Shown: positions 43,860-55,144 of the stretch, piece by piece
Numbering within the stretch: the first letter of the stretch is position 1
How the letters are laid out: the number at the start of each line of letters is the position of its first letter
Source of the DNA: Pseudooceanicola sediminis
Lineage (GTDB): Bacteria; Pseudomonadota; Alphaproteobacteria; Rhodobacterales; Rhodobacteraceae
Assembly: GCF_003575965.1 (NCBI RefSeq)
Contig: NZ_QWJJ01000002.1
Location: 310,001 to 374,000 of the forward strand
DNA length: 64,000 bases
Reading direction: 5' to 3'
Notes under the pieces: model-generated
Databases searched by the model: none
Told to the model about the DNA's origin: nothing
Seen by the model: only the letters and a program-made list of their open reading frames with translations
Program-made: the position numbers and the translations under genes

Positions 43860-44681
43860 CTAGCGCCGGGCATCCCAGGAGATGGAGGCGCGGCGCGAGG
43901 TGTAGAATTCACCGATCATGCCGATGCAGAACAGTGCCAGCGCGACATAGAGCGCATAGCTGAGCGAGGAAAAGTGCGGGTTGTAGTTGATGAAGATGTC
44001 GCCGCGCGCCTGGTCGATGGAATGGTACAGGGGGTTCCAGTCGAACAGGTTGCGCATCTTGGGATTGATCTGGTTGGCCACGAACATCTTGCCCGACGCA
44101 ATCATGTTGGCGCGCTGGTAGACGGTGGAAAGGATGCCGGTGATTTCCGGCGCCCAGGGTTTCAGCGCCAGAAAGACCGTGCCGACCGCGATACCGTATA
44201 GCCACGCGACCAGGATGCAGCCAAAGGCTCCTGCCGGATCCTGGATCGAGAAGTGCGAGATGGCGACGTAGTATACGAACAGGATCAGCGCCATCGTCAG
44301 CACCTGTATATATAGTGTCGAGATGGCGGCGGCGGCGATGGAGACGATCGTGTTCATCGGCGCATGTTTCATCATCGGAGAGGCCGGGCCTTCGGACCCC
44401 ATGACGGCACTGACGGTACGCACGTGGGTCATGTAGATAAAGACGCCGGACATCATGAACAGCACGAAGTCGCCGCGAATGGCCGCCCGCCGCAGCCCCA
44501 GCACGGTATAGAGCAGATAGAATATGACGATCAGCAAGATGACGCGCACCATGTTCGTCACGATCGACATCACGGCATTGCGGTGCCCCTTTCGGATGGT
44601 GTGGGCGCTGCTGTGAAAGATCAGCTCGACCATCGAAACGGCGGATTGCAGGCGGGTCTCGTTCGCTCTTTGCTGAAACAT
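43860..44681 (-). CDS. ABC-2 type polysaccharide export permease (KpsM-like)
   Basis: The protein has 273 residues with about six hydrophobic segments (VRVILLIVIFYLLYTVLGL, FVLFMMSGVFIYMTHV, TIVSIAAAAISTLYIQVLTMALILFVYYVAI, CILVAWLYGIAVGTVFLAL, YALYVALALFCIGMIGEF). The pattern and the motif PMNTIVSIAAAAISTLYIQ match the membrane subunit of ABC transporters that export capsule, O-antigen or exopolysaccharide across the inner membrane. The cognate ATPase is not next to it. The start at 44681 (MFQQRANETRL) has CAGGTG upstream and matches relatives; an in-frame start at 44774 is less likely. It diverges from cysQ and the glycan cluster. Confidence 0.85.
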   Translation of the reverse strand: MFQQRANETRLQSAVSMVELIFHSSAHTIRKGHRNAVMSIVTNMVRVILLIVIFYLLYTVLGLRRAAIRGDFVLFMMSGVFIYMTHVRTVSAVMGSEGPASPMMKHAPMNTIVSIAAAAISTLYIQVLTMALILFVYYVAISHFSIQDPAGAFGCILVAWLYGIAVGTVFLALKPWAPEITGILSTVYQRANMIASGKMFVANQINPKMRNLFDWNPLYHSIDQARGDIFINYNPHFSSLSYALYVALALFCIGMIGEFYTSRRASISWDARR

Positions 44682-44838
44682 GCGCACCTGCCTGTCGGGA
44701 TCGGGGTCGTCGCCCAAGGAAGTCTTGCCGTCGGGGGACCAGTGCAACATAACTTGTCCGAATGTCCCAATCAATTATGGCCGGGATAGTTGCAGAGTGG
44801 TTAACGAACCTGCTCTGAAAGACCTGAAGGAGAAACTT

Positions 44839-45636
44839 TTGGATTTCGAAAAGCTTACCCGCGTGATGCGCAAGCTGGCCTTGCAAGCCGGTGACAAGAT
44901 CATGGAAATTTACAACGCAGATGATTTCGAGGTGAAGACGAAGTCGGACGACAGTCCGGTGACGGCAGCGGATGAAGCGGCAGATGCGCTGATTTCGGCA
45001 GGGCTGCGCGCGGAATTTCCCGACGTGCTGCTGGTGACCGAGGAACAGGCCGAGTCGCACAAGGAAAGCGCGGCCACGTTCCTGATCGTCGATCCGCTGG
45101 ACGGCACCAAGGAATTCATCAACCGGCGCGGCGATTTCACGGTCAATATCGCGCTGGTCGAAAACGGCACTCCGACACGCGGCGTGGTCTATGCGCCCGC
45201 CAAGGACCGCATGTTCTATACCCTGGCCGATGGCACGACGGTGGAGGAAGCCGCGCCCTTTGACGTCGACACGGTGGGTGAGGTCACGCCGATCAGGGTG
45301 TCCAGCCCGGACAACGACGCGCTGGTGGTCGTCGCGTCGAAATCGCACCGCGATCAGGCGACGGAAGATTACATCAACAAGTATAGCGTCAAGGACAGCA
45401 CCTCGGCGGGGTCGTCGCTGAAGTTCTGCCTGGTCGCCACGGGCGAGGCGGACCTGTATCCGCGCGTCGGGCGCACGATGGAGTGGGATACGGCGGCGGG
45501 TCACGCGGTGCTGGCCGGTGCGGGGGGCGCGGTGGTGGATTTCGACACCCACGCGCCGCTGGCCTACGGCAAGGATGGCTATGCCAATTCGTTCTTTATC
45601 GCCTACGCCCCCGGCGTGGATCTGAAAAAGGCCTGA
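44839..45636 (+). CDS. cysQ: 3'(2'),5'-bisphosphate nucleotidase CysQ
   Basis: The 265-residue protein of the inositol-monophosphatase superfamily removes the 3'-phosphate of PAP (adenosine 3',5'-bisphosphate), the inhibitory product of sulfotransferases and PAPS reductase. Metal-binding motif LIVDPLDGTKEFINRRGDF is exact; TVNIALV and MEWDTAAGHAVLAGAGG follow. The start is TTG at 44839, chosen because AGGAGAAAC precedes it and the resulting N-terminus LDFEKLTRVMRKLALQAGDKI is the normal length; no ATG is nearby upstream in frame. Here it heads a cluster with a sulfotransferase gene at 52969, giving it an obvious PAP source. Confidence 0.93.
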   Translation: MDFEKLTRVMRKLALQAGDKIMEIYNADDFEVKTKSDDSPVTAADEAADALISAGLRAEFPDVLLVTEEQAESHKESAATFLIVDPLDGTKEFINRRGDFTVNIALVENGTPTRGVVYAPAKDRMFYTLADGTTVEEAAPFDVDTVGEVTPIRVSSPDNDALVVVASKSHRDQATEDYINKYSVKDSTSAGSSLKFCLVATGEADLYPRVGRTMEWDTAAGHAVLAGAGGAVVDFDTHAPLAYGKDGYANSFFIAYAPGVDLKKA

Positions 45637-45655
45637 TCCACGGGGCATCGCGGCC

Positions 45656-46909
45656 ATGCAGCCAGGATCGGCATCCCTTCGTTTCAGTGTCATCGTGGTC
45701 AGCCGGGGACGTCCGGCCGCGCTGGGGCTGTGCCTGACCGGGCTGAGCCGTCTGGCGTATGACGCCTACGAGATCATCGTCGTCGCCGATCCGGATGGGT
45801 TGGCGGCGGTGGCCCGTTCCGGGCTGGCGGACGAGGTCAAGCAGGTGGCCTGCGACGTCGCCAACATCGCGGTCGCACGCAACCTGGGGGTGGCTGCGGC
45901 GGCGGGCGAGGTGATCGCCTTTCTCGACGATGATTCGGTGCCCGAACCGGGCTGGCTGGCGCATCTGGCGCAGGCCTTTGCCCGGCCCGAGGTGGCGGCG
46001 GCGGGCGGGTTCGTGCGGGCACGCAACGGGATCAGCCATCAGTTCACGGCAGCCTCGGTCGACCGGTGCGCCGAGACGCGGCCGGTGTCGGTGGATGCAC
46101 AGGAGATCACGTGCCTGACGACAGAACCCGGCGCAGGGATCAAGACCGAGGGCACCAATATGGCGTTTCGCCGAAGCGTGCTGGCGCAGCTCGGCGGGTT
46201 CGATCCGGCCTATCGGTTCTACCTTGAGGACGCCGATCTGAACCTGCGCCTGGCCGAGCGGGGGATCGTCAGCGCCGTCGTGCCGCTGGCCGAGGTGCAC
46301 CATCACCCCGCAGAAAGCGCCACCCGCCGTGCCAGCGGCGTCGCGCGTGATCTGCACGAGGTCGGGGCCAGCACCGCCGTTTTCCTGCGCCGCCATTGCC
46401 CCGCGCCCGAGCGGCAGGCCGCCATTGCCCGGCTGCGGGCGCGGCGTCGGCGCAGCCTGGTCGCGCAGATGGTTTCGGGGCGGCTGGAGCCACGCGATGT
46501 GGGGCGGCTGCTGGCGGGATTCGACGCAGGGCTCGCCGAGGGGATGCAGCGGGAATGCCCGGACCTTGTCCCCCTGCCGGCGTCTGCGGCGGCATTCCGC
46601 CCGTTCCGGTCGCGTCGTGTTGGCGAACCGCTTGTCTTGGCGGCGCGATGGATCGGGTGGCGCGGCAAACTTGAGCAGGCGGAACAGTTGGCACGCGAAG
46701 GGCGTCCGGTGACACTCTTCGTCTTTTCTCCGACAACTCTGTACCATAGGGTCAGGATGACCACCTTCGGCGTCTGGGTTCAGAGTGGGGGAACATTCGG
46801 CAAGAGTCTGCGTTCTGACAAAGCGATCACCCTTTGGCGATTTTCCAGCAGGGTTTCGCGCGAAACCGGGCGGATTGTCCGGCAGAGATGGAACGCGCCA
46901 CTTGGCTAG
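45656..46909 (+). CDS. glycosyltransferase family 2
   Basis: The protein has 417 residues. The GT-A fold is plain: FSVIVVSRGRPAALGLCL, DAYEIIVVADPDG, NIAVARNLGVAAAAGEVIAFLDDDSVPEPGWL (nucleotide-sugar-binding D-x-D as DDD), TEGTNMAFRRSVLAQLGGFDPAYRFYLEDADLNLRL (acceptor/catalytic ED). The last 150 residues are Arg-rich and helical without a clear domain. Expected at the inner face of the inner membrane. Sugar and acceptor unknown. It lies 19 bases after cysQ, so both are probably cotranscribed. Confidence 0.88.
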   Translation: MQPGSASLRFSVIVVSRGRPAALGLCLTGLSRLAYDAYEIIVVADPDGLAAVARSGLADEVKQVACDVANIAVARNLGVAAAAGEVIAFLDDDSVPEPGWLAHLAQAFARPEVAAAGGFVRARNGISHQFTAASVDRCAETRPVSVDAQEITCLTTEPGAGIKTEGTNMAFRRSVLAQLGGFDPAYRFYLEDADLNLRLAERGIVSAVVPLAEVHHHPAESATRRASGVARDLHEVGASTAVFLRRHCPAPERQAAIARLRARRRRSLVAQMVSGRLEPRDVGRLLAGFDAGLAEGMQRECPDLVPLPASAAAFRPFRSRRVGEPLVLAARWIGWRGKLEQAEQLAREGRPVTLFVFSPTTLYHRVRMTTFGVWVQSGGTFGKSLRSDKAITLWRFSSRVSRETGRIVRQRWNAPLG

Positions 46910-47040
46910 GTCATGGTCATATTAGAGAAACTCGCAGGGGTTTCGTCACTTTTTTAATCTGGAACTCGTGCTTCGATTGCACGGTTCATGTTACAAAGCC
47001 CGTGTAATACGGGCACCAACGAATGAGTTGAGGGCACAGC

Positions 47041-47934
47041 GTGAAGAACAAGATCACCAAAGCTATCTTTCCGGTCGCAGGGATGGGGACGCGTTTCCTG
47101 CCCGCCACCAAATCGGTACCCAAAGAGATTATGACGTTGGTAGATCGTCCGCTGATCCAATATGCCATCGACGAAGCCCGGGCCGCAGGCATTACCGAAT
47201 TCATTTTTGTCACCTCGCGCGGCAAATCCGCGCTGGAAGATTATTTCGACTATGCCCCCCAGCTGGAAGACGAGCTGAACAAGAAGGGCAAGACCGAGCT
47301 GCTGGATGTGCTGAAATCCACCTACATGGATAGCGGCGCGATTGCCTATATCCGTCAGCACAGGGCGCTGGGCCTGGGTCACGCGGTCTGGTGCGCCCGT
47401 CGCCTGATCGGGGACGAACCCTTTGCCGTCCTGCTGCCCGACGACGTGATCTCGGCTGAAAAGCCCTGCCTTCAGCAGATGGTCGAAGCGTTCGAGGAAG
47501 ACCCCGCCTGCATGGTTGCGGCGATGGAAGTGCCTGCCGCAAAGGCCAGTTCCTACGGGATCCTGGACGTGAAGGAAGACAAGGGCGACGTCGTGTCGGT
47601 CAAGGGCATGGTCGAGAAGCCGAAAGAGGGCACCGCGCCGTCGAACCTGGCCGTGATCGGGCGCTACCTGCTGACGCCGCAGATCATGAAGAACCTCGAC
47701 GATCTGAAAACCGGTGCCGGGGGCGAAATTCAGCTGACCGACGCCATCGCGGACGAGATCAAGGCAGGCCGCGAGGTGAATGGCTTCCGCTTTAACGGGC
47801 AGCGGTTCGATTGCGGCTCCAAGGCCGGGTTCCTGCAGGCGACGGTGTCGTTCGGGTTGGGGCGTGAAGATTTGCGTGACGAGTTGAAAGGTTTCCTGGA
47901 AGACATCATGCATGTCGGCCACGCAGCGCAATAA
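47041..47934 (+). CDS. galU: UTP-glucose-1-phosphate uridylyltransferase
   Basis: The 297-residue protein makes UDP-glucose. Family motifs: KAIFPVAGMGTRFLPATKSVPKEIMTLVDRPLIQYAIDEA (nucleotidyltransferase signature), EDEPCMV-like ACMVAAMEVP, YGILDV, VEKPKEGTAPSNLAVIGRYLL. The start is GTG with TTGAGGGC upstream. UDP-glucose is the direct source of glucose in the glycan and the substrate of GalE 18 bases downstream. 131 bases of intergenic DNA precede it, long enough for its own promoter. Confidence 0.97.
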   Translation: MKNKITKAIFPVAGMGTRFLPATKSVPKEIMTLVDRPLIQYAIDEARAAGITEFIFVTSRGKSALEDYFDYAPQLEDELNKKGKTELLDVLKSTYMDSGAIAYIRQHRALGLGHAVWCARRLIGDEPFAVLLPDDVISAEKPCLQQMVEAFEEDPACMVAAMEVPAAKASSYGILDVKEDKGDVVSVKGMVEKPKEGTAPSNLAVIGRYLLTPQIMKNLDDLKTGAGGEIQLTDAIADEIKAGREVNGFRFNGQRFDCGSKAGFLQATVSFGLGREDLRDELKGFLEDIMHVGHAAQ

Positions 47935-47952
47935 AGCCTCGGAGCATATATT

Positions 47953-48936
47953 TTGGATCACGTTCTTGTAACAGGGGGTGCGGGCTATATCGGCTCGCAC
48001 GCCTGCAAGGCATTGAAAAAGGCCGGGTTTGTTCCGGTCACTTTTGACTCATTGGTGACGGGCTGGGAAGACGCCGTCAAATTCGGACCATTTGAAAAAG
48101 GCGATCTGCTGGATCGACAGCGGCTGGACGAGGTGTTTGCCAAGTATCAGCCGGTTGCGGTGATGCATTTCGCCGCGCTGAGCCAGGTTGGCGAAAGCAT
48201 GAAGGAACCGGGGCTGTACTGGCGCAATAACGTCGGTGGGTCGCTGAACCTGATCGAAGCCGCCGCGGCGGCCAGTTGCATGAACTTTGTCTTTTCGTCG
48301 ACCTGCGCGACCTATGGCGAACAGGACAACGTGGTGCTGGACGAAAACAGCGTGCAACTGCCGATCAACGCCTATGGCGCGTCAAAGAAGGCGGTCGAGG
48401 ATATCCTGGACAACTTCGCGGCGGCCTACGGGATGAACCACGTGATCTTTCGCTATTTCAACGTGGCGGGCGGCGACCCGGATGCGGAAGTGGGTGAACA
48501 TCACCGCCCCGAGACGCACCTGATCCCGATCATGCTGGAGGCGATCGAGGGCACGCGGCCCGCGCTGACGGTGTTCGGCACGGACTACGACACCCCCGAC
48601 GGAACCTGCATCCGGGATTACGTGCATGTCTGCGACCTGGTCGATGCGCATGTCCTTGGGTTGCGCTGGTTGCTGGATGGCAAGGGCAGCCGCGTGTTCA
48701 ACCTTGGCACCGGAGAGGGGTTTTCCGTGCGCGAGGTGATCGCGCAGTCCAACGCGGTGACCAACCGCGACGTACCGTACGAGGAAGGTCCGCGCCGGCC
48801 CGGCGATTGCACGAAGCTGGTGTCCGGGTCGAGCCGTGCGGAAACGGAGTTGGGATGGACACCGACACGTTCGACGATGAATACTATGATCACGGACGCA
48901 TGGCGGTGGCATCGGACTGGGCATTACGACAAATAA
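47953..48936 (+). CDS. galE: UDP-glucose 4-epimerase
   Basis: The 327-residue protein interconverts UDP-glucose and UDP-galactose. Short-chain dehydrogenase fold: NAD+-binding GGAGYIGSH at residues 8-16, catalytic Ser/Tyr in STCATYG and YGASKKAVE, and the GD-x-DAEVGEHHRPETHLIPIMLEA segment. The start is TTG at 47953 with CGGAG in the right place. It sits 18 bases after galU and its stop overlaps the probable true start of the family-4 glycosyltransferase. Confidence 0.96.
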   Translation: MDHVLVTGGAGYIGSHACKALKKAGFVPVTFDSLVTGWEDAVKFGPFEKGDLLDRQRLDEVFAKYQPVAVMHFAALSQVGESMKEPGLYWRNNVGGSLNLIEAAAAASCMNFVFSSTCATYGEQDNVVLDENSVQLPINAYGASKKAVEDILDNFAAAYGMNHVIFRYFNVAGGDPDAEVGEHHRPETHLIPIMLEAIEGTRPALTVFGTDYDTPDGTCIRDYVHVCDLVDAHVLGLRWLLDGKGSRVFNLGTGEGFSVREVIAQSNAVTNRDVPYEEGPRRPGDCTKLVSGSSRAETELGWTPTRSTMNTMITDAWRWHRTGHYDK

Positions 48937-49036
48937 TACTCCGCCTGCGCGGCTGCTGGATGTCACACGACTGACCAGTCGCGCAGGTCGTGGCCTGACC
49001 GGGGTTGACCGGGTCGAGGCCGCATATCTTTCAGCC

Positions 49037-50161
49037 TTGCTGGACGACGGCGTGCCGCTGTTCGGGCTGGCGCGGGTCGCGCCGGGCTATGTCCTGATGG
49101 ACCAGGCCGGGCTGCTGGCCCTGCGCGGACGATTGTGCGGAGAGGCGCCCTGGGGCCGGGCGCGCGGGGCCTTTGCGCTGGCCCGCAGGCTGAGCAGGGA
49201 CCAACAGCGGGCACAGGCGGATCTATGGCGGCACGGCTGGGCACGGTCGTCCCGGTGGGGGCTGGGCGCTATGCTGCGCCGGTTGCTGCCCCGTGGCACG
49301 ACCTATCTTAACGTCGGCCATTCGAACCTGAGCGCGCGGGTGATGCGGGCGGTGCGACAGGTGCCGGCTGTGCGGATCTGCGTGTTTTTGCACGATACGA
49401 TTCCGCTGGATTACCCCCAGTTTCAACGAGATGGCAGCGTGGCCCGGTTTCGCAGGATGCTGGATGTGGCGGGCGGTGCGGACCTGATCCTGTGCAACTC
49501 GGGGGGGACGCGGGACCGCCTGAGGGTGCATCTGGGCCCCGGCGCGCCGGGCATCCGTGTGCTGGGGTTGGGCGTTGCGCGCCCTGTGCCCCGACCGGAC
49601 GAGGTACCGGCGGGCCTGCCGCCGGACCGCCCTTATTTCGTGGTCACGGGCACCATCGAACCGCGCAAGAACCACGCCCTGCTGCTGGATGTCTGGGCCG
49701 CGCTCGAGTCCGAGGTTCCGGCGGCGAAGATGCCCGTTCTGGTGATCTGCGGCGCGCGCGGCTGGCGCAACGAGGCTGTCCTTGCCCGGCTGGACCAGCT
49801 CGGCGGCTCGGGTGCCAATATCATCGAGGTCGCGGGCCTGAGCGATGGGGCGCTGGCGGCCCTGACGCAAGGGGCGCACGCCAGCCTGTTTCCCAGCCTG
49901 GCCGAGGGCTTTGGCCTGCCCCCCGCCGAAGCCGCGGTGCTGGGGACCCAGCCGATCTGTTCCGACCTGCCGGTGCTGCGCGAGGTTCTGGGCCCTGTGG
50001 CGGTGTACCTTGCGCCGCAGGACAGGGCCGCCTGGCAACGGGTGATCCGCGATTTGTCCGACCGCGACAGGCGGCCGCTGGACCCCGAGATCGCGGCAGA
50101 GGCCGAGCAGCGTTTTGCCCCTTGGGACGCACACATCAATATTCTATTAACCATTATCTGA
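49037..50161 (+). CDS. glycosyltransferase family 4
   Basis: GT-B fold glycosyltransferase: CVFLHDTIPLDYPQF in the N-terminal half, then YFVVTGTIEPRKNHALLLDVW, VLVICGARGWRNEAV and the sugar-nucleotide-binding ASLFPSLAEGFGLPPAEAAVLG with its E-x7-E pair. The coordinates begin at the first standard start codon (TTG 49037), but the frame is open from 48890 and residues encoded before it (LLDVTRLTSRAGRGLTGVDR, then VEAAYL) look like the normal N-terminus of this family, so the true start probably lies upstream and uses an unusual codon (see findings). Donor sugar unknown. Confidence 0.88.
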   Translation: MLDDGVPLFGLARVAPGYVLMDQAGLLALRGRLCGEAPWGRARGAFALARRLSRDQQRAQADLWRHGWARSSRWGLGAMLRRLLPRGTTYLNVGHSNLSARVMRAVRQVPAVRICVFLHDTIPLDYPQFQRDGSVARFRRMLDVAGGADLILCNSGGTRDRLRVHLGPGAPGIRVLGLGVARPVPRPDEVPAGLPPDRPYFVVTGTIEPRKNHALLLDVWAALESEVPAAKMPVLVICGARGWRNEAVLARLDQLGGSGANIIEVAGLSDGALAALTQGAHASLFPSLAEGFGLPPAEAAVLGTQPICSDLPVLREVLGPVAVYLAPQDRAAWQRVIRDLSDRDRRPLDPEIAAEAEQRFAPWDAHINILLTII

Positions 50162-50235
50162 TAGCCTTTTCCTGCCGGAATTTCGACGCGGGGAAATGAC
50201 GTGCCGGCGCACGCGGGGCGGCGAAAGAGGGCGGG

Positions 50236-51246
50236 GTGGGGTTTTCACAGCGTTACCAGTTGAGGGCCGAGCGAAGGCGGTGGCTTTTTCGCGCCTTTCG
50301 CAAGCAGCGGGAGTTGCGCTGTATCGTCGACCGCAGCGCCAAGATCCGCCCGCAGGACATTTTGCTGTTCTCTACCTTGCGAAACGAACAGCTGCGCTTG
50401 CCGTATTTCCTGACGTATTATCGCGACCTCGGGGTCAACCACTTTTTCTTTGTCGACAATGGCAGCGACGACGGCTCGGCCGAGTTTCTGAGCGCGCAGC
50501 CCGACTGTAGCGTCTGGCACACCGAGGCGAGCTACAAGAAGGCGCGCTTTGGCGTCGACTGGCTCAATGGATTGCAGGCGCGCTATGGCCACGGTCACTG
50601 GACGCTGGTGGTCGATCCCGATGAATTCTTTGTCTATCCTTTCTGCGAGACGCGACCGCTGAGCGCGCTGACCGACTGGCTGGATGCATCGTCGATCAAG
50701 TCATTCTCGGCCATGCTGCTGGATATGTACCCCAAGGGACCGTTGACCGCGCAGCCCTATCGGGCCGGGCAGAACCCTCTGGACATCGCGGCCTGGTTCG
50801 ATTCGGGCAATTACACGGTTCAGCGAAACTGGAAATACGGCAACCTCTGGATTCAGGGTGGTCCGCGCACGCGGGTCTTTTTCGCGGATCGGCCTGCGAT
50901 GGCACCGGCGCTGAACAAGATCCCGCTGGTGCGGTGGGACCGGTCCTATGCCTATGTCAGTTCGACCCACATGCTGCTGCCGCGCGGTCTGAACCTGGTG
51001 TTCGACGAATGGGGCGGGGAAAAGGCCAGTGGCATCTTGCTGCATACCAAGTTTCTCGACACGTTCGGGAGCAAGGCCGAGGAGGAACTGTCGCGGCGCC
51101 AGCACTACGGCGGCAGCCGCGAATACCAAGCTTATCACGCAAGGATGAAGGCAGACCCGGAGCTTTGGTGCAAATGGTCGGAAAAGTATATTAACTGGCG
51201 GCAGCTAGAAATACTGGGGCTGATGTCCAAGGGGAACTGGGCGTAG
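50236..51246 (+). CDS. glycosyltransferase family 2/92-like
   Basis: The protein has 336 residues. The core reads LLFSTLRNEQLRLPYFLTYYRDLGVNHFFFVDNGSDDGSAEFL, followed by WTLVVDPDEFFVYP with the metal-binding D-x-D. This pattern is the Glyco_tranf_2_4 / GT92-like group. The C-terminal part has aromatic/charged patches (HTKFLDTFGSKAEEELSRRQHYGGS, WCKWSEKYINWRQLEILG). The start is GTG with GAGGGCGGG upstream. It is followed after 15 bases by the GT14-like gene and then the sulfotransferase, suggesting an operon. Confidence 0.85.
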   Translation: MGFSQRYQLRAERRRWLFRAFRKQRELRCIVDRSAKIRPQDILLFSTLRNEQLRLPYFLTYYRDLGVNHFFFVDNGSDDGSAEFLSAQPDCSVWHTEASYKKARFGVDWLNGLQARYGHGHWTLVVDPDEFFVYPFCETRPLSALTDWLDASSIKSFSAMLLDMYPKGPLTAQPYRAGQNPLDIAAWFDSGNYTVQRNWKYGNLWIQGGPRTRVFFADRPAMAPALNKIPLVRWDRSYAYVSSTHMLLPRGLNLVFDEWGGEKASGILLHTKFLDTFGSKAEEELSRRQHYGGSREYQAYHARMKADPELWCKWSEKYINWRQLEILGLMSKGNWA

Positions 51247-51261
51247 GAAAAGGGTGCGCGT

Positions 51262-52962
51262 TTGAGTGTTGGCATTGTCATGCTGGTGCATTCTGCCCTG
51301 GATCGGGCGGAGCAGGTCGCGCGACACTGGTCTGCGGCGGGTTGTCCCATAGTCATCCACTGCGACCGAAATGTGCCTGGCAAGACCTATGCTGCATTCC
51401 GCAAGTCGCTGTCGGATATCGCGACGATCCATTTTTCCCGGCGTTACCGCTGTGAATGGGGCACATGGGGCCTTGTGGCGGCCACGCAGGATGCCAGCGA
51501 AATGATGTTGGCCAGCTATCCCGATGTGCGCCATGTCTATCTTACATCCGGGTCCTGCCTGCCGTTGCGCCCCGTTGCCGAGCTGATCAATTATCTCGCC
51601 GCGCGTCCGCAGACCGATTTCATCGAAAGCGCGACGACGGCGGATGTGCCCTGGACGGTGGGGGGGCTGGACGAGGAACGCTTTACCCTGCGGTTTCCGT
51701 TTTCGTGGAAAAGGCATCGCAAGGCCTTTGACTGGTACGTCGGGGTGCAGCGCCGGACACGGTTTCGCCGCGTGATGCCCAATGGCCTGGTGCCCCATAT
51801 GGGCAGCCAGTGGTGGTGCCTGTCGCGGGCGACGCTGTCTTCGATTCTGGGGGATTCGATGCGGCCGACGTTCGACAAGTATTTCAAGAAGGTATGGATC
51901 CCGGATGAAAGCTATTTCCAGTCGCTTGCGCGGATCTATTCCAGCCACATCGAGAGCCGGTCCCTGACCCTTTCGAAATTCGATTTCCAGGGCAAACCGC
52001 ACATCTTCTACGACGATCACCTGCAACTGCTGCGGCGTTCCGATTGCTTTGTCGCGCGAAAGATCTGGCCGCGGGCCAATCGTCTGTACGATGCCTTTCT
52101 GACCGATGCCGGGGCGGCGATGAAGCGGACAGAACCGAACCCTGGCAAGATCGACCGCATCTTTTCCAAGGCCGTGGAGCGGCGCACGCGCGGGCGACCC
52201 GGCCTGTACATGCAGAGCCGCTATCCCAACGACGGCTGGGAAAATGGCCTGACGGGGGCGAAATATTCAGTTTTCCAAGGATTTTCGGAGCTTTTCGAGG
52301 ATTTCGAGGGCTGGTTGGCCCGCACGACGGGGTGCCAGGTGCATGGCCACGTCTTTGGGCCGGAGGACGCGCAATTTGCCGGGGGCCAAAGCGTGATCAA
52401 CGGCGCCTTGATGTCGTCTGCCAGGTTGCGCGACTACAATGCACGCGATTTTCTGACCAACCTGATCTGGAACACGCGGGGACAGCGCCAGTGTTTTCAA
52501 TATGGACCGCGGGCCAACCAGGATGTCGCCTGGGACATGGCAAAGGATGCCAACGCCCAGATCTCGGTCATCTCGGGGGCCTGGGCGGTGCCGTTGTTCC
52601 AATCCAACCGCAGCTTTGTCGAGATCCGGCGCGAGGCCGCGTGGTTGCAGAAGGTCGAGAGCGAATTCATCAATGCCCTGCGCTCTCCCTATTCCAAGGG
52701 GCACTTTCACATCTGGTCGATGGCGGACTTCGTCGATTCCCCGATGGAGCCGTTGCAGGCCGCGATCGAAGAGATCAGCCACCATGGTCGCCGCCTGACC
52801 GAAGTGCCCAAGATGGTGGACCTGACCGGTTTCGGCCAGTTTCTTCAGGATCTTAAAAATCAGGGTATGCACCCCTACCTGATGGGCGATTTCCCGGCGT
52901 CGTCCGACGATATACCCTTTGTTATCAAGCCGGTGCGCAAACCTTACCCCATTCAAAGGTAG
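51262..52962 (+). CDS. GT14-like beta-1,6-N-acetylglucosaminyl/xylosyltransferase with long C-terminal domain
   Basis: The protein has 566 residues. Residues 1-290 are core-2/branching-enzyme like: SVGIVMLVHSALDRAEQVARHW, FSRRYRCEWGTWGLVAATQDASEMML, HVYLTSGSCLPLRP and GSQWWCLSRATL, PDESYFQSLA. In eukaryotes this family includes branching GlcNAc-transferases and the xylosyltransferases that start glycosaminoglycan chains. Residues about 300-566 form a second domain (PGLYMQSRYPNDGWENGLTG..., NQDVAWDMAKDANAQISVISGAWAVPLF) that I link to DUF5927; its role is unknown. The start is TTG at 51262 behind AAAAGGG. The sulfotransferase gene starts six bases after its stop. Confidence 0.85.
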   Translation: MSVGIVMLVHSALDRAEQVARHWSAAGCPIVIHCDRNVPGKTYAAFRKSLSDIATIHFSRRYRCEWGTWGLVAATQDASEMMLASYPDVRHVYLTSGSCLPLRPVAELINYLAARPQTDFIESATTADVPWTVGGLDEERFTLRFPFSWKRHRKAFDWYVGVQRRTRFRRVMPNGLVPHMGSQWWCLSRATLSSILGDSMRPTFDKYFKKVWIPDESYFQSLARIYSSHIESRSLTLSKFDFQGKPHIFYDDHLQLLRRSDCFVARKIWPRANRLYDAFLTDAGAAMKRTEPNPGKIDRIFSKAVERRTRGRPGLYMQSRYPNDGWENGLTGAKYSVFQGFSELFEDFEGWLARTTGCQVHGHVFGPEDAQFAGGQSVINGALMSSARLRDYNARDFLTNLIWNTRGQRQCFQYGPRANQDVAWDMAKDANAQISVISGAWAVPLFQSNRSFVEIRREAAWLQKVESEFINALRSPYSKGHFHIWSMADFVDSPMEPLQAAIEEISHHGRRLTEVPKMVDLTGFGQFLQDLKNQGMHPYLMGDFPASSDDIPFVIKPVRKPYPIQR

Positions 52963-52968
52963 CGACAG

Positions 52969-54384
52969 ATGCCCCAGTTCTCCTCATTTGTCGTGTTCGC
53001 GGAAATGCGCACCGGATCCAACTTTCTGGAGGCCAACCTGAATGCGCTGGAGGGGGTCAATTGCCTGGGAGAGGCGTTCAATCCGCATTTCATCAGCTAT
53101 CCCAATCGTGACAGCTGCCTTGGGATCAGTCAGGCCGAGAGGGATCGCGACCCGGGCCAGCTGCTGGCGCGGATGCAAAGCGCGCCGGGGCTGAACGGTT
53201 TCCGGTTCTTCCACGATCATGATCCACGCGCGCTTGAGCATGTGTTGAAGGATCCGGCCTGTGCCAAGATCGTCCTGACGCGCAATCCTGCGGAAAGTTA
53301 TGTCAGCTGGAAGATCGCGCAGGCCACGGGACAGTGGAAGCTGACGGATGTGCGCCGCCGCCGCGCCGAAACGGTGGCGTTCGACGCGGATGAATTCGCG
53401 GCGCACCTGGGCAGGCTTCAGGCCTTTCAGGTGCGACTGCTGAATGCCTTGCAGGTCAGTGGGCAGACCGCGTTTTATCTGGATTACGAGGATTTGCAGA
53501 GCGTTGCCGTGATGAATGGCCTCGCGGCCTTTCTGGGGGTGGCGGGCCGGCTGGAGACGCTGGACCGGGACATGAAGGTGCAGAACCCATCGGCGCTGGC
53601 GGACAAGGTCGAAAATTTCGCGGAAATGGAGGACGTGCTGGCGCGGTTGGATCGGTTCAACCTGTCGCGCACGCCCAACTTCGAACCGCGCCGTGGCCCG
53701 CAGGTGCCGTCCTTCGTGGCGGCGGCGGGAATTCTGTACATGCCGATCAAGGGCGGACCGGAGGCCGCGGTCACGCGCTGGATGGCCACGCTGGACAAGG
53801 ATGGCGTGATCGAGGGCTTCAGCCAGAAATCCCTGCGCCAGTGGAAGCGGGCGCATCCTGGGCACCGAAGTTTCGCCGTGTTGCGTCATCCGGTTGCGCG
53901 GGCCCATGCGGTTTTCTGCGACAAGATCCTGTCGACGGGGCCGGGGGCCTTTGCCGAGATACGCAAGGTCTTGCGGCAGCGGTTCAACCTGCCGATACCC
54001 GAGGTGGTGGATGCAGGCTATGCACCGCATCACCACAAGGCCGCGTTCCTGGCGTTTCTTGATTTTCTGAAGATCAACCTGTCCGGGCAATCCGGCCTGC
54101 GTGTCGATCCGCATTGGGCAACGCAATCGGCGATGCTTGAGGGGATGGCGCAGTTTGCCCTGCCGGATCAGCTGGTGCGCGAAGACGAAATCACGCTGCA
54201 CTTGCCGGCGTTGGCCCGCCGGGCAGGGGGGGGTGATCACCCACTGTCCGACCCGGCTGCGGGTGCGGAGCTGCCCTATGCGTTGAATGTAATCTATGAC
54301 GCGGAGGTCGAAGCGCGCGTCGCAGAGGTGTATCAGCGCGACTACATGACCTTTGGCTTTGGCCCCTGGCAGGGTGTGCGTTGA
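52969..54384 (+). CDS. tandem sulfotransferase (two sulfotransferase-like modules)
   Basis: The protein has 471 residues. Module 1 (1-230): 5'-phosphosulfate loop region FAEMRTGSNFLEANLNAL and 3'-phosphate region KIVLTRNPAESYVSWKIA, resembling the Stf0 sulfotransferase group. Module 2 (about 250-471): GILYMPIKGGPEAAVTRWM as a P-loop-like start and RSFAVLRHPVARAHAVFCDKI as the 3'-phosphate-binding strand-loop-helix, resembling Sulfotransfer_2. If both modules work, one chain could sulfate two positions. Module 2's P-loop lacks the usual K-[TS]-x-[GS] order, so it may be degenerate. It ends a run of GT genes; CysQ would clear the PAP produced. Confidence 0.82.
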   Translation: MPQFSSFVVFAEMRTGSNFLEANLNALEGVNCLGEAFNPHFISYPNRDSCLGISQAERDRDPGQLLARMQSAPGLNGFRFFHDHDPRALEHVLKDPACAKIVLTRNPAESYVSWKIAQATGQWKLTDVRRRRAETVAFDADEFAAHLGRLQAFQVRLLNALQVSGQTAFYLDYEDLQSVAVMNGLAAFLGVAGRLETLDRDMKVQNPSALADKVENFAEMEDVLARLDRFNLSRTPNFEPRRGPQVPSFVAAAGILYMPIKGGPEAAVTRWMATLDKDGVIEGFSQKSLRQWKRAHPGHRSFAVLRHPVARAHAVFCDKILSTGPGAFAEIRKVLRQRFNLPIPEVVDAGYAPHHHKAAFLAFLDFLKINLSGQSGLRVDPHWATQSAMLEGMAQFALPDQLVREDEITLHLPALARRAGGGDHPLSDPAAGAELPYALNVIYDAEVEARVAEVYQRDYMTFGFGPWQGVR

Positions 54385-54433
54385 CGCGCCGACGACGGGA
54401 TGACAGGCTGAATTGACAGCCCGAAACCGGGAC

Positions 54434-55090
54434 ATGTCGTCGACGGGAGGCCGGATCATTTCCATCACTGTTCATCACCTCAACAACTCTCGGTCACAGC
54501 GGGTTCTGTGGCTGCTGGAGGAATTGGAGCTGCCCTATACGATCACGCGCTATCAACGTGATCCCAAGACGATGCTGGCCCCGGCCGCGCTGAAAAAGGT
54601 GCATCCCTTGGGCAAATCGCCGGTGGTCGTTGACGAAGAGGCGAACCTGACGGTCGCTGAGACCGCCGTGATCGTGGAGTATCTGATCGACCTGGCCGGG
54701 GGTCGGATGGGGCCGCCCGACGATCCTGCAGAGGCTCTGCGGTATCGGTACTGGATGCACTACGCCGAAGGGTCGCTGATGCCGCCGCTGTTGCTGAAAC
54801 TGGCCATGAGGCGGGTGCCGATCATGGGGCGTCTGGCTGTCAGGAAGGTGCAGCCGATGATTGAGGTGCATCTGGATTTCGTCGAAGCCACGCTGTCGCG
54901 GCAGGAGTGGTTTTCGGGCGAACAGATCGGTGGCGCGGACGTGATGATGAGTTTTCCGCTGGAGGCTGCTTGCAGCCGCGCCGGTCTTGACGGGTCGCGC
55001 CCGGCCACGATGGAATGGCTGGATCGGATTCATGCGCGCCCGGCGTACAAGGCGGCGTTGGCGCAAGGCGGGCCATATGCCTATGCCTGA
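54434..55090 (+). CDS. glutathione S-transferase
   Basis: The protein has 218 residues with a thioredoxin-like N-terminal domain (ITVHHLNNSRSQRVLWLLEELELPYTITRYQRDPKTMLAPAALKKVHPLGKSPVV, with a likely catalytic Ser in NNSRSQ) and a helical C-terminal domain. It conjugates or reduces substrates with glutathione in the cytoplasm; substrate unknown. The start at 54434 gives an N-terminus eight residues longer than usual for this subgroup; an ATT codon at 54459 behind a better ribosome-binding site (GGGAGG) would give the typical length. A terminator follows. Confidence 0.9.
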   Translation: MSSTGGRIISITVHHLNNSRSQRVLWLLEELELPYTITRYQRDPKTMLAPAALKKVHPLGKSPVVVDEEANLTVAETAVIVEYLIDLAGGRMGPPDDPAEALRYRYWMHYAEGSLMPPLLLKLAMRRVPIMGRLAVRKVQPMIEVHLDFVEATLSRQEWFSGEQIGGADVMMSFPLEAACSRAGLDGSRPATMEWLDRIHARPAYKAALAQGGPYAYA

Positions 55091-55120
55091 AGCCCATCAT
55101 CGCCTTATTGAAATGCAACA

Positions 55121-55144
55121 GGGCCCCGGATGGGGCCCTTTTTT
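55121..55144 (+). terminator. terminator of the glutathione S-transferase gene
   Basis: GGGCCCC / GGGGCCC stem with loop GGAT and six T; 30 bases after the stop codon. Confidence 0.9.

Follow-up and report, generated by a model that had tools for sequence, protein, structure and literature searches.

We report that a stretch of Pseudooceanicola sediminis DNA (contig C17, NZ_QWJJ01000002.1, positions 310,001 to 374,000; 64,000 nucleotides, here called the window) carries a module of permease, glycosyltransferase and sulfotransferase genes that is widely conserved in the family Rhodobacteraceae. It is reasonably probable that this locus, at 43860–54384 of the window, is the main site of a dispersed, ATP-binding cassette (ABC)-transporter-dependent system that makes a capsule or glycolipid common to most of the family and is known here from its genes alone. 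The gene identities, their conservation and co-occurrence, and the conservation of the site for 3'-phosphoadenosine-5'-phosphosulfate (PAPS) were obtained by computation on the 4.44-Mb genome (99.6% complete) and its relatives; from them we infer that the parts would work as one machine, and what it would make. A sequence-only reading of the window had placed a KpsM-like permease, CysQ, GalU, GalE, three glycosyltransferases, a GT14-like enzyme and a tandem sulfotransferase in one 10.5-kb block, and profile matches located all of these genes there. Its overall interpretation, a sulfated and exported glycan with chemistry like that of glycosaminoglycans, is partly supported.

The permease gene lies on the minus strand at 43860–44681, and all genes from cysQ to the sulfotransferase gene are on the plus strand, where 6 to 131 bases separate one listed open reading frame (ORF) from the next. 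The permease ORF is open to 44774 and has a likely ATG start at 44681, which gives 273 aa. It encodes a Vex/Kps-type ABC-2 permease, an orphan KpsM: the match to PF01061 (ABC2_membrane) is 26.1 bits, slightly below the Pfam cut-off of 26.9, and the best NCBIfam model is VexB (NF011723, 48 bits), followed by KpsM (27 bits), both far below their equivalog cut-offs. The glycosyltransferases are a GT2 enzyme termed GT2a at 45656–46909 (PF13641, 73 bits), a GT4 enzyme at 49037–50161 (PF00534, 60 bits), a second GT2 enzyme termed GT2b at 50236–51246 (PF13704, 120 bits) and, at 51262–52962, a glycosyltransferase family 14 (GT14, Branch) domain (PF02485, 56 bits) fused to DUF5927 (PF19349, 505 bits). 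The two-domain sulfotransferase follows at 52969–54384.

We profiled 149 genomes of the same family, one per genus; the genomes are related, so the counts are not independent. DUF5927 was found in 121 genomes, the sulfotransferase in 122 (121 after the match in G074, which lies elsewhere in its genome, was set aside), the permease in 133 (124 without nine weak genomes with a best match of E 1.7e-13 or weaker) and KpsE2, a KpsE-like protein encoded outside the window, in 128 (127 after a weak match in G101 was set aside). Fragments, for example in G133, G147 and G148, counted towards presence, the thresholds for strong matches were self-chosen, and negatives are the complement of the listed matches. 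The permease, GT14-DUF5927, the sulfotransferase and KpsE2 were all present in 116 genomes and all absent from 20, with a subset in the other 13; of the 121 genomes that had DUF5927, 119 had the sulfotransferase too. Chance grouping of the locus genes is ruled out by this profile because the grouping recurs in most sampled genera, and the module is a widely conserved and real one. Within the genomes sampled, neither DUF5927 nor the two-domain sulfotransferase occurred outside the family. Across the phylum, 27 of the 398 genomes drawn had DUF5927, and each of these belongs to the family, whose members in the draw were not counted; of 289 genomes drawn from the class, four, again all of the family, matched the sulfotransferase over its full length, and three genomes from other families matched the N-terminal half alone.

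The gene order was compared in 40 hand-picked loci, of which 20 came from good assemblies and the other 20 mostly showed a weak DUF5927 match or an unusual layout. With variations, it reads dnaK, alkB, permease, cysQ, (kdsB), GT2a, galU, (galE), GT4, GT2b, GT14-DUF5927, sulfotransferase, ptsN, hpf and lptB. GT14 and the sulfotransferase stood together in 37 of the 40 loci, the permease was in the stretch in 36, and kdsB, encoding the synthetase of CMP-Kdo (cytidine monophosphate-3-deoxy-D-manno-octulosonic acid), in 24. The same comparison was extended to 80 named loci. The sulfotransferase gene was directly behind GT14 in 76 of the 79 with enough downstream DNA, and the 69 with enough upstream DNA held the permease in 67, galU in 66, cysQ in 65, galE in 56, kdsB in 50, GT2a in 42 and GT4 in 41. 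These neighbourhoods show a conserved association of GT14 and sulfotransferase across Rhodobacteraceae, the lack of which would have refuted the sequence-only reading. Its proposal of a glycan locus that is linked to export, includes a sulfotransferase and is split over the genome is supported. The GT2a and GT4 pair was swapped in about 40% of the named loci, and 12 of the 40 picked loci lacked both and carried a second GT2b-like gene in their place. Because this set varies among loci, there are probably two or more variants of the glycan backbone.

Three further genes of the block look like housekeeping residents, because they are kept where the module is absent. These are cysQ at 44800–45636 (start candidates GTG 44800 or ATG 44866, by eye), encoding a phosphatase of 3'-phosphoadenosine-5'-phosphate (PAP; TIGR01331, 263 bits, cut-off 229), galU at 47041–47934 for uridine diphosphate (UDP)-glucose supply (TIGR01099, 334 bits, cut-off 327) and galE at 47953–48936 for UDP-galactose supply (TIGR01179, 402 bits, cut-off 262). 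CysQ was found in 142 of the 149 genomes and in 19 of the 20 without any of the four module parts. For ten of these 20 we examined the cysQ region, which was picked by the position of cysQ, so that this gene is present by construction. None of the ten regions contained the permease, GT2a, GT4, GT2b, GT14 or the sulfotransferase, and kdsB was found in eight, galU in seven and galE in four. The earlier proposal that CysQ, GalU and GalE are dedicated parts of the system was rejected on these counts. The module-less site is still flanked by dnaK and ptsN-hpf-lptB in L219, L223 and L224, and the L225 and L227 stretches end at contig ends. In G067 (L219), whose CysQ is 81% identical to that of the window, solely cysQ, galU and galE remain between alkB and ptsN, a pattern that looks like loss of the module. 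Nine of the 20 genomes (G008, G014, G017, G029, G033, G054, G059, G083 and G090) have a best CysQ match of at most 59% identity and may be distant lineages that never held the module.

The two halves of the sulfotransferase match different Pfam families, both weakly: PF00685 at 18.8 bits (cut-off 22) and PF03567 at 22.0 bits (at the cut-off). The NodH-like N-terminal half resembles the solved structure named 'LPS sulfotransferase NodH' (LPS, lipopolysaccharide; PDB 9vki, E 9.4e-17). In the aligned members, the RTGSN motif is kept at R14, G16, S17 and N18 (each 38/39) and at the Thr (36/39), and R105 (39/39) and S113 (38/39) are likewise conserved, so the half carries both the 5' and the 3' PAPS-binding motifs and is predicted from them to sulfate. 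The C-terminal half is related to Sulfotransfer_2 (PF03567): all eight halves tested (from the window and relatives) matched it with E values between 9.5e-9 and 0.08, and four passed the cut-off; 19 of the 39 whole members matched this family. P308 and R311 are kept in all 39 members of this half, but R306 only in 29, and its P-loop is without conserved basic and Ser/Thr residues (position 261 is Arg in 12, Pro in nine and Lys in eight; position 264 is Pro in 30), so that the half lacks the full PAPS motif and looks degenerate. A recent internal duplication was considered and rejected: a profile alignment of the halves by hhalign covers only 47 columns, at a probability of 7.9 and E 0.0044.

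Both PF02485 and PF19349 were found in all 39 aligned members of the GT14 protein, and the closest named relative is from Pseudooceanicola sp. HF7 (76% identity; P. sediminis itself may be left out). Of the PDB entries, xylosyltransferase 1 matches the GT14 half best (E 3.5e-12, aligned over two stretches). E216 of the PDES motif is invariant and aligns with the Glu of PAESFF in xylosyltransferase 1, which we take to be the catalytic-site Glu of GT14. Peptide O-xylosyltransferases carry a Xylo_C domain beside the GT14 domain. Xylo_C was absent from a scan of the window protein (E up to 0.01) and from the 39 members (E up to 0.001). The parallel with animal glycosaminoglycans has GT14 membership as its sole basis; the protein carries DUF5927, and Xylo_C was not detected.

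Distances between proteins also tie the module together. Pairwise distances of GT2b, GT14 and the sulfotransferase correlate at 0.88–0.90 (GT2b with the other two at 0.89–0.90), those of the three with the permease at 0.75–0.81, and those with DnaK, HPF and LptB at 0.37–0.62. Median dN/dS was 0.25 for GT14, 0.30 and 0.49 for the N- and C-terminal halves of the sulfotransferase and 0.40 for the permease, with 0.21 for GalU and 0.30 for CysQ (three pairs only) as comparison; the values were taken at a dS near 0.8, close to saturation, and signal constraint only.

The remaining export and Kdo genes are found elsewhere in the P. sediminis genome. On contig C43, kpsS, kpsD and kpsC lie between ribE and ribD; the three were together beside ribE in all ten relatives examined, with ribD on the other side in seven. 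PF05159, the KpsS/KpsC family, is over the cut-off in both C43 proteins, and KpsD matches PF02563 over the cut-off and NF011658 at 125 bits. PF05159 has matches in 138 of the 149 genomes, which in five (G017, G063, G090, G102 and G125) are weak, with KpsS and KpsC not distinguished. It reached E 4.1e-25 or better in the 129 genomes outside the 20 module-less ones, and among those 20 it was absent in 11, weak in five and strong in four. KpsE2 and KpsT2, the latter sharing 84% identity with its G055 counterpart, are encoded on contig C28, where kdsA is lacking. In ten relatives taken at KpsE2-type matches, KpsT2 adjoined KpsE2 in all ten and kdsA was present in seven; next comes a phosphomannomutase-like gene in L117 and, as judged by eye, in G004. 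This last genome is a distant member of the family; in it, the phosphomannomutase-like gene, kdsA, kpsE2 and kpsT2 are directly behind the sulfotransferase gene on the opposite strand. The pairing of the permease with KpsT2 is suggested by the co-occurrence of permease and KpsE2 together with the adjacency of KpsT2 and KpsE2. KpsE2 scores 166 bits on TIGR01010 and the canonical KpsE 189 bits (cut-off 437.5). About 210 residues without a Pfam match precede the KpsE-like part of KpsE2 (L129:8209-9924), compared with 72 in canonical KpsE. A canonical set of kpsF, kpsU, kdsA, kpsT, kpsE and kpsM is present on contig C50, and beside these genes we noted by eye a TniA/TniB-like pair of transposase and ATPase (L106:312-3625).

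Of the two missing components for which the sequence-only reading had proposed a search, KpsT and PAPS synthase, the search yielded KpsT2 as a candidate export ATPase, and adenosine 5'-phosphosulfate (APS) kinase was seen as fragments only. Two C-terminal fragments of the kinase, L127 and L128, occupy C13:6-125 and C19:6-125, the first bases of two contigs. They suggest an assembly break in a repeated cysC, and PAPS synthesis in this genome is likely, as judged from these sequences. The polymerase, which the earlier reading had noted as absent from the window, would not be needed here: ABC-transporter-dependent glycans are finished by cytoplasmic glycosyltransferases.

In the pathway that we propose, KpsS and KpsC would make a poly-Kdo linker on lipid from CMP-Kdo, GT2a and GT4 (or the replacement) together with GT2b would add sugars, and GT14-DUF5927 would add a branch or side sugar. 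The N-terminal half of the sulfotransferase would sulfate the glycan in the cytoplasm with PAPS; a cytoplasmic action fits because no obvious membrane segment was seen by eye in the GT14 protein or the sulfotransferase. The permease would pair with KpsT2, KpsE2 and KpsD would carry the product out, and CysQ would clear PAP, as for the whole cell.

Several observations weigh against such a single system. The canonical kpsT-kpsE-kpsM set on C50 makes the ATPase for the window permease ambiguous, and KpsS and KpsC could serve the C50 system. On VexB, the window permease (48 bits) is outscored by the canonical one (68.5 bits), KpsT2 has only a slight edge over canonical KpsT on VexC (90.5 against 84.5 bits, both below the cut-off), and both KpsE types fit the general KpsE model best. 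APS kinase was seen in this genome only as the two 40-residue fragments at contig ends. Distances of housekeeping proteins also correlate with those of module proteins (0.78 for GalU and GT14, 0.71 for DnaK and the permease, 0.67 for CysQ and the sulfotransferase), and in the more distant genomes loss of the module is indistinguishable from never having had it. The variable glycosyltransferase set speaks against one invariant product, which probably varies. In five genomes or loci (G057, G074 and the three Roseobacter loci L168, L175 and L194), no sulfotransferase gene follows GT14 while the rest of the module is kept; sulfation therefore looks separable from the rest, and the five cases may represent only two or three events.

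The module might instead make a short, defined sulfated oligosaccharide, a glycolipid or a part of the LPS outer core rather than a polymer capsule, each glycosyltransferase adding one sugar. The locus encodes only four glycosyltransferases, with two main variants in the family; it adjoins lptB and in many cases includes kdsB, a gene for Kdo, which is shared with LPS. A Vex/Kps-type permease, KpsE2 and PF05159 proteins, which co-occur with the module, are however capsule and not LPS-core machinery, and KpsD adjoins KpsS and KpsC in P. sediminis and in the ten relatives; we regard a short product as somewhat unlikely.

It is very unlikely that the sulfotransferase is only a neighbour that acts on an unrelated lipid, metabolite or protein. 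Sulfotransferases are versatile, and GT14 is kept without one in the five cases above, but the tight linkage of the two genes, both in the genome profile and in the picked and named loci, and the correlation of their distances (r 0.88) argue for a shared role. Loss of sulfation activity, with the two-domain protein persisting as a scaffold or relic, would agree with the altered P-loop and the faster evolution of the C-terminal half (dN/dS 0.49 against 0.30). We give this hardly any credence, as the N-terminal half retains the tested PAPS residues, the C-terminal half retains P308 and R311 throughout, and both halves are under purifying selection.

A broader reading goes beyond the dispersed capsule or glycolipid system favoured above: an ancestral pathway whose genes are scattered, and whose GT14-DUF5927 enzyme would have a new specificity, would give most of the family a sulfated surface capsule or glycolipid of a single common type, in two or more glycosyltransferase variants. 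This is an unlikely, speculative extension; under it, phages, gene transfer agents and algal partners could all recognise the shared coat. Should the system favoured above hold, a sulfated surface glycan would be standard in a whole, largely marine family, which would bear on the turnover of marine sulfated glycans and on phage and gene transfer agent receptors, and DUF5927 would gain a role as a GT14 partner domain. Genomes without only the sulfotransferase, or without the whole module, permit comparisons without engineering.

Beyond the module, a glutathione-S-transferase-like gene (54413-55090) lies 3' of the sulfotransferase gene and ends before a terminator-like hairpin at 55120-55139; it was unmatched in the 79 named loci with enough downstream DNA. 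Promoter and terminator scans yielded about the same as shuffled sequences. Elsewhere in the genome, two further sulfotransferase-like ORFs lie in what appears by eye to be an exopolysaccharide locus on contig C19, and a third lies on C10 near glycosyltransferase-like ORFs; the three are at L130:14133-14969 (plus strand, by eye), L132:3740-4495 (minus strand, PF00685) and L133:7013-7891 (plus strand, PF00685).

Titles and abstracts of the open-licence literature yielded no description of this locus, of a family-wide bacterial sulfated glycan or of a function of DUF5927. According to the available part of PMC8205485, bacterial sulfated polysaccharides are scarcely known outside cyanobacteria. 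Exceptions are reported in the available parts of PMC11641403 and PMC7356697, so sulfated glycans in bacteria are in themselves no novelty. The receptor capsule of the Rhodobacter capsulatus gene transfer agent was considered as the same system and set apart by its description, in the available part of PMC10218006, with the wza, wzb and wzc export genes of another pathway type.

Compared with known systems, the closest likeness is to ABC-transporter-dependent capsules of the group 2 type, which use the same KpsM, KpsT, KpsE, KpsD, KpsS and KpsC types and Kdo supply, all encoded in the P. sediminis genome. Here, in contrast, the genes are scattered over several loci, GT14-DUF5927 and a sulfotransferase are included, and one chromosomal site retains two main glycosyltransferase variants from genus to genus. 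Among NCBIfam models, the best for the window permease and KpsT2 are VexB and VexC of the Vi antigen exporter VexABCD, and KpsE2 scores above canonical KpsE on VexD (89 against 61 bits), yet KpsE2 fits the general KpsE model better and all Vex scores are far below the cut-offs. In ABC-dependent systems, KpsS and KpsC make the poly-Kdo linker, and Vi is without both and anchored via VexE, as stated in the available part of PMC12220298; KpsS and KpsC are present here (VexE was not searched). Animal xylosyltransferase 1 resembles the GT14 half, which here is joined to DUF5927 instead of a detectable Xylo_C. Synechan of Synechocystis (xss) is a polysaccharide that is likewise sulfated and extracellular, and its genes include those for sulfotransferases and glycosyltransferases, but it is described in the accessible text of PMC8205485 as plasmid-borne and of the Wzx/Wzy type. 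The sulfated capsule of the marine bacterium Vibrio sp. KMM 8419 likewise combines Kps-type export genes with sulfotransferases; its cluster, in the accessible text of PMC11641403, is strain-variable and has its own cysC, cysN and cysD, whereas the locus described here is widespread in a family, with no PAPS genes seen in it.

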